A stretch of DNA of 64,000 bases, taken from assembly GCA_903851195.1 (NCBI GenBank), contig CAINNJ010000025.1:1-64000 (forward strand), in the 5' to 3' direction. This DNA comes from an uncultured Acidobacteriia bacterium (GTDB taxonomy: Bacteria > Acidobacteriota > Terriglobia > Bryobacterales > Bryobacteraceae). The position numbers and the translations under genes are program-made. The notes beneath the pieces were generated by a model that saw only the letters and a program-made list of their open reading frames with translations, did no database searches and was not told the origin of the DNA. Below are positions 4,434 to 33,655 of the stretch, in pieces (position 1 is the first letter of the stretch; every line of letters starts with the position of its first letter).

Positions 4434-4679
4434 CTACTGTTCGCGAGCTTCGTTTTCGCGGCGGGCTTCTTTCACGAGGGCCGGAATGTTTTCCTCGCGG
4501 ATGCCCTTTTCCCGCGCCCGCCTGCCCAGCGTTTCGGACAGCCGGTCGAGCCCGTAATTTGCGGCGTACCGGCGGACGGCGTCCTCCAGAACTTCCGCCG
4601 GCTCGCGGTGCTGGTGAAGCGCTAATTCCTCGATCTGTTTCCGGAGTTCGTCGGAGAGCAAGGTTGTCGTTTGCTGCAT
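4434..4679 (-). CDS. Ribbon-helix-helix (CopG-like) antitoxin-type protein, apparently orphan
   Basis: An 81-residue protein starting MQQTTTLLSDELRKQIEELA. A short beta strand and two helices (REPAEVLEDAVRRYAANYG) fit a ribbon-helix-helix DNA-binding domain, followed by a charged helical tail (IREENIPALVKEARRENEAREQ) of the sort that caps a toxin. No toxin gene follows: downstream lies only about 100 bases before the 3' end of the convergent M56 gene. It is transcribed divergently from the next antitoxin, sharing 66 bases of intergenic DNA. It is probably an antitoxin left after toxin loss, or an independent regulator. Confidence 0.65.
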   Translation of the reverse strand: MQQTTTLLSDELRKQIEELALHQHREPAEVLEDAVRRYAANYGLDRLSETLGRRAREKGIREENIPALVKEARRENEAREQ

Positions 4680-4712
4680 GGCCTTGTCTGCAATTGTCGC
4701 CCAAACGGCAGA

Positions 4713-4739
4713 TTGAAATGCCCGTCTCGCCGTTATACT
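4713..4739 (+). promoter_or_regulatory. Promoter of the mazE-like antitoxin gene
   Basis: TATACT at 4734-4739 is a 5/6 match to a -10 hexamer and ends 7 bases before the ATG at 4746. TTGAAA at 4713-4718 is a possible -35 with a short 15-base spacer. Transcription would begin at or next to the start codon, giving a leaderless message. Confidence 0.45.
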
Positions 4740-4745
4740 TTTGGC

Positions 4746-4985
4746 ATGAAGACGGCGGTTTCAATCCCCGAAGACGTTTTTGCCGGTGCGGAAAGACTGG
4801 GACGCCGGACGAAGCGTTCGCGAAGCGACATTTATGCCGCCGCTCTACGGGAATACATCGCGCGCCACTCCGGCGATGCGGTTACCGAAGCGATGAACTC
4901 TGTTCTGGATGAGGTGGGAGCAACCGGCGCCGACCCTTTTGTTTCGCTTGCGGCACGGAACAGGCTGGAAAGTGTTGGTTGGTAA
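4746..4985 (+). CDS. Ribbon-helix-helix antitoxin (partner of the broken MazF)
   Basis: A 79-residue protein. MKTAVSIPEDVFAGAERL followed by SRSDIYAAALREYIARH is a clear RHH/CopG DNA-binding domain, of the type paired with MazF/PemK toxins. The tail (AVTEAMNSVLDEV, ADPFVSLAARNRLESVGW) is the expected toxin-binding segment. The mazF-like gene begins in another frame over its last codons (TTG at 4979), as in intact pairs. The upstream -10 element is 7 bases before the ATG, so no Shine-Dalgarno site exists. With the toxin destroyed, the gene may persist as a free regulator or as an antitoxin against toxins elsewhere. Confidence 0.8.
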   Translation: MKTAVSIPEDVFAGAERLGRRTKRSRSDIYAAALREYIARHSGDAVTEAMNSVLDEVGATGADPFVSLAARNRLESVGW

Positions 4986-5415
4986 TCTCGCAGGGCGAGA
5001 TCTGGTGGGCAAATTTCTTTTAGTGACCGCTCGGGTTGCAGCCACCGGACACGGCTGAACGGGGTGTTCCACTGAATGACGGCGCCGCGCCCGGCGGCTC
5101 CCGAGCTTCCGTCACCGATCGGTTCCGGTCCCGGTTTTCGCCGCCCAGTAGTTGTCGTTCAGGGCGATGCACTCAATCAGAGCCGGATCGGGACTGTCAT
5201 CTGTGTGCCGCTCACCAGCAATTTAAAGTGGGGTGACGCTCCAGATAATGTAATCCTGGCGTCGAAAACGACAGGGCTGGCCAAAGACTCCGTGGCCAAT
5301 GTCTCTCAGATTGTTACTGTGGACCGGGAACTTCTAACGGAATGTGCGGGTAAGGTCTCAGGGGCGCAGGTTCAAATTGATCCTTGCCGGGCTTGACGTT
5401 GTGCTCGGCAGGTAA
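4979..5415 (+). pseudogene. mazF-like (PemK/MazF) endoribonuclease toxin, interrupted by an inserted repeat and frameshifted
   Basis: The first piece reads VISQGEIWWAN from a TTG at 4979 and stops shortly after. The frame resumes past 5105 with LPSPIGSGPGFRRPVVVVQGDALN, ICVPLTSNL and VANVSQIVTVDR, all conserved MazF/PemK segments. About 91 bases of foreign sequence (around 5015-5105) separate the two pieces and include a stop codon; this insert contains the 82-bp element also found near 30.6 kb. Near 5374 an extra A shifts the last codons: read in the other frame they give LILAGLDVVLGR and a stop at 5413-5415, a normal MazF C-terminus. Two independent lesions mean the toxin is dead. Confidence 0.88.
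5026..5107 (+). repeat. 82-bp dispersed element, copy 1 (inside mazF)
   Basis: The element begins accgctcggg and ends cccgagct, with 7-bp terminal inverted repeats GCTCGGG/CCCGAGC. An internal CAGCC...GGCTG hairpin lies close to the left end. It matches 30581-30662 at 73 of 82 positions without gaps. Here it interrupts the MazF frame. It encodes no enzyme, so it would be a non-autonomous element. Confidence 0.88.
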
Positions 5416-9099: not shown

Positions 9100-9108
9100 C
9101 CCACATTT

Positions 9109-9395
9109 GAAAGTGGTGCTGACTCAGGATACTTAGTGAAAGTGGTGCTGACTCAGAATACTTAGCGAAAGTGGTGCTGACTCAGAATACTTAGCGAAAG
9201 TGGTGTTGGCTCAGGGTGCTGGTGAAAGTGCTGCTGACTCAGGATACTTAGTGAAAGTGGTATTGACTCAGGATACTTAGTGAAAGTGGCGCTGACTCAG
9301 GATACTGGTGAAACGTTCTGCTGGCTCAGGGTGCTGGTGACAGTGCTGCAGACTGAGGGGTACTGGTGAAAGTGATGATGACTCGGGCTGCTAGT
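9109..9395. repeat. Minisatellite: ten 28-29 bp tandem units
   Basis: Ten head-to-tail copies of a unit close to gaaagtggtgctgactcagg plus atacttagt. Most units contain CTGACTCAG, a 9-base near-palindrome (CTGA-C-TCAG). Units 2 and 3 are identical; units 4, 8, 9 and 10 are more diverged and end in ctggt or ctagt. There are no unique spacers. The array fills almost the whole gap between two convergent genes, and the TAG stop of the porin gene on the minus strand lies within the last unit. Confidence 0.93.
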
Positions 9396-30404: not shown

Positions 30405-32213
30405 ATGAACCGGTTTGTCAGGCGCATTTCCCTGGGCATGCTCGCGGGCGGGGTGGCCGGCGTGGCCCTGCTCGCGACCTCTTCCCGCGATTTTCGGCTG
30501 CTGGCGCCGGCGATCCTGGTCGGCGGCGCGTATGCGGCGACGCTGCGGCCCGGGCGCACGGCCAGGGACGCTTTTGTCAAACCGCTCGGGGTTCAGCCGC
30601 CGGACACGGCTGAACGGGTGGTTCCACGGACTCACGGCGCCGCGCCCGGCGACTCCCGAGCTTATGTCGACAGCCTGATGGCGGCGAGCGCGCTGGGCAT
30701 TCCGCTGTGGTGCCTGATCAGCGTGATTGCCCGACCGCTGGCGGGCGGACAGATGCCGGAATGGGGCGCGGAGCAGATGCGGGCGCAGTTCCCCGCCCTG
30801 GTCGGGTGGATTCTTTATGGCGGAGCGCTGGGCGTGCTGGTGCGGATTGTCAGTGACGCCGCGCTGCGCTTCTTCGGGCCCGAAGAGGAACCGGTGCCGG
30901 CCGCGCCGAAAGAGATCCGGCGCATTCTGATTCTGGGCGGCGGCTTCGCGGGGATGCGCACGGCGGCCGCTCTCGAAGAAGAACTGCAGGGCGACGCTTC
31001 GGTTTCGATCACCCTTGTCAGCGAGACCAACGCACTGTTGTTTACGCCGATGCTGGCGGAGGTAGCGGGCGGCAGCCTGGAAGCGAGTCATATCAGCACG
31101 CCGCTGCGGGGCGGTCTGCACCGGACGGAGTTCATCCGGGGGCGCGTGCAGAAGATCGATCTGGAGCGGCGCCTGGTCAGCGTTGGCGAGAGCGGGGCGT
31201 CGGCGGACGATGCCGGTGAGCGGCGCGAACTGGTTTGGGATCATCTGGTCCTGGCGCTGGGCGCGACGTCGAACTACCTGGGCAACGCGAATGTCGAGAA
31301 GCTGTCGTTTAACTTCAAGAGCCTGCTGGACGCGATTCGCATCCGCAACCACGTGATCGAGATGTTCGAGCGGGCCGACCGGGAGACCGATGTCGCGCTG
31401 CGCAAACCGATGCTGACGTTCGTGGTGGCGGGCGGCGGGTTCGCGGGCGTGGAACTGGCGGGCGCGATTAACGATTTCGCGCACGGCATTCTGGCGGATT
31501 ATCCCGGGCTGGAGGCTGGCGATCTTCGCACCGTGCTGGTGCATTCGCGGGACCGGATTCTGCCGGAACTGAGCGAGTCGCTCGGGCGTTATGCGCAGCG
31601 GAAGATGGCGGCGCGGGGCGTGGAGTTTCGGCTCAACACACGGCTGCTGGATGCGCGGCCCGGCGTGGTGGTGCTGGGCGATGGGGAAGTCGAGGCGGAG
31701 ACGCTGGTGTGGACGGCGGGGACGGCGCCGAATCCTCTGCTGAAGACACTGCCGGTGGAGCGCGACAAGCGCGGCGCGGTGCTGGTGGGGGAGACGCTCG
31801 CGGTGCCGGGTCATCCGGGTCTGTGGGCGCTGGGCGACTGCGCGGCGGTTACCGACGCGAAGACCGGCAAGGCGTGTCCGCCCACCGCGCAGTTCGCGCT
31901 GCGGGAGGCGGATACGCTGGCCCGCAATATCTGCGCGGAACTGGCGGGGCGTCCGCAGCGCCCGTTCCACTTCGATTCGCTGGGCGCGCTCTGCGTGGTG
32001 GGGCACCAGACGGCGTGCGCCGAACTGACGGTGCCGTTCGCGCGCAATAAGACGATGCGCTTCTCCGGGCTGTTCGCGTGGCTGCTGTGGCGCGGGATTT
32101 ATGTCGGGAAGCTGCCCGGGGTGGAGCGGAAGATCCGGGTGCTGATCGACTGGACAATCGAGATTTTCTTTCCGCGCGATATTGTGCAGACCATCGATCT
32201 GCAGGGTAAGTGA
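30405..32213 (+). CDS. NDH-2-like NAD(P)H:quinone dehydrogenase with N-terminal membrane module
   Basis: A 602-residue protein. Residues 1-160 hold three or four membrane helices ([64 protein letters not shown]), followed by a flavin dehydrogenase: [23 protein letters not shown] (FAD), [19 protein letters not shown] (NADH), [14 protein letters not shown] and [10 protein letters not shown]. Residues about 58-87 derive from the dispersed element and break the membrane module. Normal NDH-2 enzymes lack this N-terminal module, which resembles a repeat of the next gene's protein. The role is respiratory electron entry at the membrane. Overlaps or abuts the next gene. Confidence 0.85.
30581..30662 (+). 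repeat. 82-bp dispersed element, copy 2 (in frame inside the NDH-2-like gene)
   Basis: Matches 5026-5107 at 73 of 82 positions without gaps, including the GCTCGGG/CCCGAGC ends. The flanks gcttttgtc (30570-30578) and gcttatgtc (30660-30668) agree at 8 of 9 positions, as expected of a target-site duplication. Element plus one flank is 90 bases, so the reading frame is kept with 30 added codons. Confidence 0.88.
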
Positions 32214-32215
32214 GC

Positions 32216-33655
32216 ATGACGGTTCCGGAAACGTGGCGCGATGCGCTGATCGGACTGGCAGTGGGCGCGGTGGGCGGAGTGCTGGGCAGCCTGATGATCA
32301 GCCAGTCGGGGTCCTCTGGTTTGGCGCTGGAGGGGCTGGCGCTGGGCGCCGTTTTTGGGCTGACGTTCGGACTGTTTTTCGCGCGGCGGGCGACCACACC
32401 GGGCGCGGGGCTCATCTGGGGCCTGAGCTATGCGTTTCTCGGCTGGCTGACGCTGCCGGCATGGGCGGTGCCGCTGCTGGCCGGAGGGGGCGGCACGGCC
32501 ATGATGCTGCAGGATGCGCATGTGCATTTTCCGGAACTGGTGGCGGCACTGCTTTGTCTTGGGCTGCCGGTCGGGCTGGCTTTGGGTATCCGGGGGGGTA
32601 TCCGGGGGAGTTTGCGGGAGGCCGCCGATCGCGGCGAGTCTCACTGGCCGCGTGCGCTTTTGACGGGTGGTTTCGCGGGCGTGGTAGCCGGTCTGATTTT
32701 CAGCCGCTGGATGTACGCAGGCGATTTCTTTCCGCTGTTGAGCGGCTTCGGGCAGATGCAGTCGAAAGGGGCGACGGTGCTGCTGCACTTCGGCGTGGCG
32801 CTGGTGATCGGCGCATCCTTCGGCCTGCTGTTTGAGAGGGACATCCGGAGCTATGGTTCGTCCATGGGTTGGGGGCTGGGATACGGGATTTTCTGTTGGT
32901 TCCTCGGCCAGCTCACGCTGCTGCCCGCGCTGGCCGGGCAGGCGCCGGACTGGTCTGTCGACGCCGGCAGCCAGTTGTTCGGATCGCTGGTCGGCCATAT
33001 TCTTTACGGGTTGATTCTGGGTGTGGTTTACGCCAGTCTGGACCGGGTGCGGATCCGGCTGTTCGTGCAGTCCGACCCGCTGAACCGCGAGCGTGAAGGG
33101 CCGGGGTTCCGCGTGCTTCGCTCGCTGCAGTGGGGCGCGATGGCGGGATTCGCGGGCGGCGCGATTTCGAGTCCGGTGATGCTGGCGACGGGGATTCTGC
33201 CGAAGGTGGCGGGTATCGAGACGGCGTTTTCCACCGGCTTCGGATTGCTGGTGCATCTGCTGATCAGCACGCTGCTGGGCATGAGCTACGGACTGCTCTT
33301 TCGCAATGAGGCGCCGAGTCTGGGGCTGGGCGCCTCGTGGGGCTGGCTGTTCGGGATGATCTGGTGGTATCTGGGACCGATGACGCTGCTGCCGCTGCTG
33401 CTGACGGGCGAGTGCGACTGGAGTCCGGCGGCGGCGTCGGCACTGCTGCCATCGCTGCCGGGACATCTGATCTACGGCGCCGCCACGGCATTTACATTTT
33501 TGTTTCTGGAACGGCGGCATCGGGACTGGCTGCTTTCCGATCCGAAGACGGCCGCGCGGGAATTGCGGCGCGTGCGGCCCTCCGGGACACCGGCTCCGGC
33601 GCTGTGGCTGTTCGCGCTGGGAACCGGCGTGCTGCTGCCGATTCTGCTGGGTTAA
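32216..33655 (+). CDS. Multi-pass membrane protein with repeated modules
   Basis: About 479 residues, starting at ATG 32216 (a GTG at 32210 is in frame and overlaps the previous stop). At least ten hydrophobic segments. A module recurs two or three times: [20 protein letters not shown] then [20 protein letters not shown], and [22 protein letters not shown] then [21 protein letters not shown]. The second half of this module resembles residues 135-160 of the adjacent NDH-2-like protein. No named family was recognised. It probably forms a membrane partner or anchor for the dehydrogenase. A 12-bp in-frame tandem duplication is present at 32585-32608. Confidence 0.72.
32585..32608 (+). repeat. 12-bp in-frame tandem duplication
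   Basis: ggtatccggggg is present twice without mismatch, adding a second GIRG to a cytoplasmic or external loop of the membrane protein. Confidence 0.9.

Follow-up and report, generated by a model that had tools for sequence, protein, structure and literature searches.

An in-frame insert in an NDH-2-like gene as a probable copy of a new palindromic repeat family

We consider it likely that the segment inserted in the NDH-2-like gene of the window (the whole stretch of 64,000 nucleotides that was analysed) belongs to a new family of palindromic repeats that are selfish, non-autonomous and protein-compatible; the family occurs mainly in one genus, probably of the Acidobacteriota. That a mobile repeat lies in frame within this gene had been proposed in a sequence-only reading, and this was borne out: the ORF is uninterrupted, copies of the repeat are dispersed, and the orthologues were free of the element in 8/8 cases. 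The family consists of palindromic repeats of about 80-95 bp, found mainly in one genus, and the member in the NDH-2-like gene belongs to the type here named module A. We propose that the repeat is selfish and that its in-frame copies would persist because the peptide is tolerated; transposition would proceed as a single-stranded hairpin, probably performed in trans by a Y1/HUH transposase of the IS200/IS605/RAYT type. The sequence at 30570-30668 agrees with the first description of the segment. The features of the two module A copies in the window, both scored with a covariance model (CM), are as follows.

30405-32213, + strand: NDH-2-like gene, with N-terminal helices, an FAD/NAD domain and an NDH2 C-terminal domain; carrier of the insert
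30572-30661, + strand: module A copy (L001), one 90-nt repeat unit, in frame, coding for a 30-residue peptide
30570-30578, + strand: left junction GCTTTTGTC, the left end of the element, for which the family has the consensus CTTTTGAGGAAC, with TGTC as a possible host copy
30584-30590, + strand: 5' arm of the terminal stem, GCTCGGG, exact complement of 30655-30661
30596-30610, + strand: 5' arm of the inner stem, partner 30639-30653; across 52 copies, pairing is seen in 90.1% of cells
30639-30653, + strand: 3' arm of the inner stem, partner 30596-30610
30655-30661, + strand: 3' arm of the terminal stem, CCCGAGC, pairing with 30584-30590
30660-30668, + strand: right junction GCTTATGTC, in which GCTT is the element end; host ATGTCGAC codes for the conserved YVD
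5015-5112, + strand: second module A copy, CM score 90.5 bits, inside a PemK/MazF-like ORF, which it interrupts

The ORF at 30405-32213 encodes 602 aa and is open from end to end despite the repeat. Its protein matched the Pfam domains Pyr_redox_2 (2.8e-41) and NDH2_C (2.4e-08) and is 63-70% identical to its orthologues; the relatives of the gene occupy ten loci, 7 of them in Acidobacteria of some kind and 3 in Opitutaceae. In a structure model, the insert lies between the helices at residues 30-46 and 84-113, a long way off the FAD/NAD domain (173-501), and appears as a disordered loop with a pLDDT of 26-27 at residues 51-80. This model is weak evidence, because its alignment was shallow (9 sequences) and its mean pLDDT was 63.4. 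The insert had been placed between membrane helices; N-terminal helices do flank it on either side and resemble membrane helices when the sequence is read by eye, so that the membrane part of the claim goes by the look of the sequence only. Most likely, the insert makes the loop that joins two N-terminal helices longer and is tolerated there, and the NDH-2-like enzyme, with a longer loop outside the flavin domain, would probably still be working. The gene downstream of it (window 32210-33652) showed a match to DUF1440. Still further downstream, the orthologous loci have a stretch with ~30% identity to residues 83-169 of the NDH-2-like protein.

Alignment with orthologues lacking the insert had been suggested as a check, and it gave a uniform result. 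Of ten NDH-2-like loci found by the scan, eight extend across the site, and none of these eight has the segment (columns 52-84); the two remaining loci (L106 and L107) are unaligned across the site. Directly to the right of the gap, the eight orthologues read AYVD, AYAD or AYAE. No orthologue with the N-terminal part of the NDH-2-like protein was found in 12 other genomes of the same genus that were searched. For other genes that carry the repeat, the insert is absent from 18/19 homologues of an amidohydrolase (own-genome and other paralogues counted), 5/5 homologues of a SnoaL-like protein, 17/17 of lipoyl synthase (LipA) and 1/1 of a propeller-like protein (G016). In the single exception among the amidohydrolases, which is in G017, a different element of the family is situated at the same junction. 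The insertion was also said to add exactly 30 codons. This figure fits the repeat period of 90 nt rather than the gap in the orthologues, which spans 33 columns, because the three residues beyond 30 are taken as an ordinary difference of the flanks.

The genome to which the window belongs comprises 7.72 Mb in 67 contigs, and the window is within contig C25. A BLAST search with 87 nt of L001 returned 54 matches in this genome at E <= 0.01, far above chance, and gave 47 aligned pieces that each span 61 or more query positions; two of these pieces (L028 and L034) are probably one copy at two contig ends. The CM was built from 52 copies (alignment A1) out of 59 candidates, leaving out L015, L017, L038, L039, L040, L044 and L090 (length was not the reason for L039), and matched L001 at 30570-30667 with 102.6 bits. 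With this model, the own genome (G000) gave 86 matches or more, against 100 in G008, 43 in G018, 11 in G014 and 9 in G017, the four same-genus genomes together having at least 163; these counts are lower bounds, because scoring was limited to 150 candidates in each genome. By BLAST, matches were present in 5/61 genomes, the own genome counted. Among 150 genomes drawn from the taxonomic family, a CM match at 1e-6 was obtained in 6 (27 candidates scored per genome), one being the own genome, while the others belong to different genera and matched weakly; three of these weak loci were read, and the end TTCTGAGGAAC was seen in two of them.

The usual unit of module A is 90 nt, and thus the downstream frame is preserved. 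Sister modules have another stem and the same ends as module A: a query that included module B's 5' half (its stem is GCGCACA/TGTGCGC) gave 26 matches, and there are further sister modules besides B. The copies are single or organized in head-to-tail arrays, some of which are mixed, with sister modules joined to module A through a common junction, GCTTYTGAGGAAC. Repeat copies or arrays were located at or <1 kb from the ends of contigs C10, C14, C19, C27, C38, C53 and C55; these positions make it probable that longer arrays cause breaks in the assembly. A separate tandem array in the window (9108-9384; 29-bp unit, 9.6 copies) has a consensus unrelated to the repeat family.

The second copy in the window is 88% identical to L001 over 88 nt (5026-5113). 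The downstream part of its PemK/MazF-like ORF (4985-5396) matched PemK_toxin at 9.7e-18; the upstream part, read by hand, runs to ...GEIWWANFF and then stops at the left junction of the repeat, and the frames differ on the two sides. The repeat is thus able to disrupt a gene and not only to extend one. Just upstream, a small ORF (4671-4985) has the look of a ribbon-helix-helix antitoxin by eye and gave no Pfam hit.

The EKPLG frame of module A codes for a 30-residue peptide rich in Pro and Gly. It is open in 29/36 A copies of 98 nt, and a second frame on the + strand is open in 26/36, so that openness alone is no proof of selection on the peptide. Because one frame is open in most copies, an insertion in that phase of module A would add a loop or a tail instead of killing the gene. 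Every in-frame case of module A found in the own genome uses the EKPLG frame, and this sole use may be due to the phase of the target or to a milder peptide. The protein genes concerned, including two from G008, are listed here.

NDH-2-like (L001): EKPLG frame read through
Amidohydrolase (L009): EKPLG frame read through, directly behind an apparent signal peptide (by eye)
SnoaL-like (L041): EKPLG frame read through, directly behind an apparent signal peptide (by eye)
Propeller-like by eye, no Pfam hit (L049): ~68 added residues, readable as three modules
Glucuronyl-esterase-like (L021): probable in-frame insert at the N-terminus
2Fe-2S protein (L002): module A forms the C-terminus
Lipoyl synthase (L012): module A forms the C-terminus
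PIN domain (L048): module A forms the C-terminus, at the start of an array running off the contig
L-aspartate oxidase (L044): ends five residues into module A
Polysacc_synt_2 protein (L260, G008): in-frame copy, other strand
HlyD-like protein (L273, G008): in-frame copy

In-frame domestication of a mobile element in a respiratory enzyme had been called unusual in the sequence-only reading. The in-frame insertion is not unique to the NDH-2-like gene: the same frame is used in several other genes, and Rickettsia offers a precedent, as described in excerpts of PMC2229807, PMC10969869 and PMC3733652. In-frame copies of related elements were found in two other species (G017 and G008). Pfam domains lay beside the insert or tail in 8/9 genes tested, and the exception was L049, which had no hit. 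The glucuronyl-esterase-like case is only probable because the N-termini of the homologues do not align; the peptide was present in 0/11 homologues over the stretch compared. At L034/L028, a stop codon within the repeat interrupts a gene that looks sulfatase-like by eye. A codon-model survey of 125 copies (51 own, 74 from relatives) found 4 in frame and open, 19 with a same-strand coding signal on both sides but in another frame or with a stop, and 102 with a one-sided signal, no signal, signals on opposite strands, or short flanks. By these counts, the majority of copies do not seem to lie within genes. The survey is rough, in that it misses short N-terminal cases and places the C-terminal extensions of L002 and L012 among the 19; L041, L021 and L049 were detected by reading frames, not by this survey.

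A tolerated insertion suffices to explain the in-frame copy, and there is no need of domestication. Were the loop a domesticated and useful part of the enzyme, as in a true exaptation, one could understand that the gene is open with its frame kept, and that in two species (L009 in the own genome, G000, and L137 in G017) different elements of the family occupy the same N-terminal junction of the amidohydrolase. However, L001 is still near the repeat consensus and must therefore be either young or unadapted; unrelated proteins contain the same peptide, and in the structure model the insert is a disordered loop of low confidence. We therefore hold exaptation to be very unlikely. A broader proposal is that the family as a whole was shaped by selection for protein compatibility, which would have produced its thirty-codon unit, its one open frame for a soluble, linker-like peptide and a target fitting the signal-peptide junction, enabling it to spread through genes; the independent uptake of an element by two species at one junction of the secreted amidohydrolase would agree with this. 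We regard the proposal as rather unlikely.

The ends of the family are TTYTGAGGAAC on the left and GCTT on the right, beside a TTYT-type site. How an insertion is placed can be seen at the amidohydrolase site, around which G014 and G017 are 98.7% (left) and 96.2% (right) identical. In G014, the empty site reads ACCACTCCC followed directly by TTTGACATT; in G017, the filled site reads ACCACTCC, 79 nt from TTCTGAGGAAC to GTCCGCT, and then TTTGACATT. The net difference is 78 nt, or 26 codons, in frame and with no duplication. The host end of lipoyl synthase, EQASQA as seen in G003, recurs only to the right of the insert.

These sites bear on the 9-bp target duplication that the sequence-only reading had suspected in the flanks of L001. 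The two flanks, GCTTTTGTC and GCTTATGTC, are indeed present, but the left CTTTTG equals the family consensus and the right GCTT is the conserved end of the element itself, which leaves about TGTC as a possible duplication at L001. As a rule for the family, such a duplication does not hold, being absent from the G014/G017 pair and not significant in 82 isolated copies, for which the register test gave 414 vs 397.6 (z 1.6; 15/300 shuffles). In 30 isolated copies, the matching register had a z of 0.4 and the largest of 16 registers a z of 2.9. When arrays were kept (124 copies), there was an excess at the matching register (z 3.1; 0/200). Duplication-like matches of the flanks were noticed in the single copies L252 (11 bp), L270 and L251 (8 bp each), in the arrays L003 and L046, and at L001. 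The last two observations, together with the terminal inverted repeat given by the 7-bp stem, are what could be expected of a classical MITE, that is, a deleted IS with terminal inverted repeats that is moved by a DDE transposase and makes a target duplication of ~9 bp. Against this, the excess in isolated copies is weak in the larger set and z is 0.4 in the smaller one, and neither the G014/G017 pair nor the EQASQA end of LipA shows the host sequence on both sides; we consider a classical MITE unlikely.

Instead, we read the junctions as those of a repeat that would insert beside a TTYT-type site without regular duplication of it. Seen on the opposite strand, the element follows a target ending in TCARAA and has this motif at its own end as well. 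Elements of the IS200/IS605 type have a target motif before the element and the same motif at the element end. The left-end motif of the modules, in its exact forms, was found in 0/20 Y1 loci examined, of at least 39 Y1 matches in the genus, and in G017 modules are present with no Y1 match at E <= 0.001. A single RAYT-like gene (L124, among the 20 loci) is present in the own genome; it scored 64.7 bits with NCBIfam, below the cut-off of 80. Its stop-to-stop frame (L124:1393-2133, on C18) and a frame of the other strand both contain VGNLRPIGNRP, so that this transposase may be surrounded by another kind of short repeat.

By folding back, the repeat can form one long hairpin from its terminal 7-bp stem and its inner 15-bp stem. 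The terminal stem is exact in 32/36 A copies of 98 nt (42 A copies in all, less 6 of other lengths) and in 13/22 R copies of relatives. With the terminal, inner and left-end/centre helices, 87.1% of cells were paired, vs 29.8-53.5% when the partner was slid. The covariation evidence for the stems is mixed: cells with double changes numbered 23 vs 11.5 in shuffles (0/500 as high), while the pairs with double changes (5 vs 3.8; 96/500) and the pair types (15 vs 15.6; 410/500) were not unusual, and the covariation score of 0.073 was no better than that of a one-column slide of -1 (0.075). A long hairpin would also be formed by a structured RNA, such as a self-cleaving ribozyme or a processing hairpin, which would be removed or cleaved in RNA so that the peptide is never made, and GGAAC at the left end could pair with the central GTTCC across the terminal stem (78.1% of cells paired). 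However, this left-end/centre helix, which crosses the terminal stem, was rejected as unsupported by double changes (one such cell); Rfam at the gathering score gave 0 matches in the window, the fold energy of L001 is ordinary for its composition (z -0.57), and a DNA hairpin element would show stems too. An RNA element is accordingly highly improbable to us. A tRNA-derived repeat was also rejected, as there is no tRNA in the window.

In-frame palindromic elements are discussed mainly in Rickettsiales and in some REP-rich bacteria. The repeat described here, which we favour as a selfish and tolerated element, belongs to an apparent free-living soil lineage of Acidobacteriota in which copies are numerous and sister modules, several host proteins and a sister genome free of the element are available. 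It may therefore provide comparative genomics and enzymology with a system for testing how selfish DNA survives inside protein genes and whether it may become useful later. It is also a warning for annotation, because 30-residue inserts in such proteins can be derived from repeats.

Among the literature matches listed, there was no prior description of the present palindromic repeat family, and its behaviour can be compared with that of several known systems. In excerpts of PMC2229807 and PMC10969869, Rickettsia and Wolbachia are described as having short palindromic repeats of several families, both intergenic and in frame in unrelated genes, with a conserved encoded peptide; an excerpt of PMC3733652 gives a CGTC tag for the RPE of R. 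conorii. Here too, a palindromic repeat is in frame in several unrelated protein genes, whereas the end consensus is CTTYTGAGGAAC ... GCTT, with no CGTC (by eye). Compared by descriptions, the present family is further set apart from RPE by belonging to what is probably another phylum, by its 90-nt unit and by its head-to-tail mosaic arrays. GTAG REPs, according to an excerpt of PMC3733652, are palindromes that occur as dimers and clusters, some in ORFs, where more than half of the inserts add 20-30 residues. The geometry of insertion in our repeat is likewise compatible with a Y1 transposase as in GTAG REPs and REPINs, but GTAG is not found at the consensus ends (by eye), and the unit is larger; the left-end motif of the modules, in its exact forms, did not occur in the 20 Y1 loci examined, L124 included.

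In Acidobacteria, TIR repeats with TIRYT, tyrosine transposases of the IS200/IS605 group, are reported in section 16 of PMC3733652. These resemble our family, by description and not by sequence, in having inverted repeats and probably in the phylum, although no transposase gene flanked by the present modules was found. As to the subterminal hairpins of IS200/IS605 elements, the inner and terminal stems of our repeat make up a single long hairpin instead of two separate ones at the ends. Correia/NEMIS, ERIC and other bacterial MITEs are non-autonomous elements whose open frames are fused to host ORFs, and the Correia/NEMIS and ERIC type has target duplications and TA ends, as stated in an excerpt of PMC2229807. 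Our repeat is like them in being non-autonomous and in the fusion of its frames to host ORFs, and unlike them in that duplication is not consistent. Taken together, the present family shares the behaviour of RPE, but not the tags printed for RPE or REPs.
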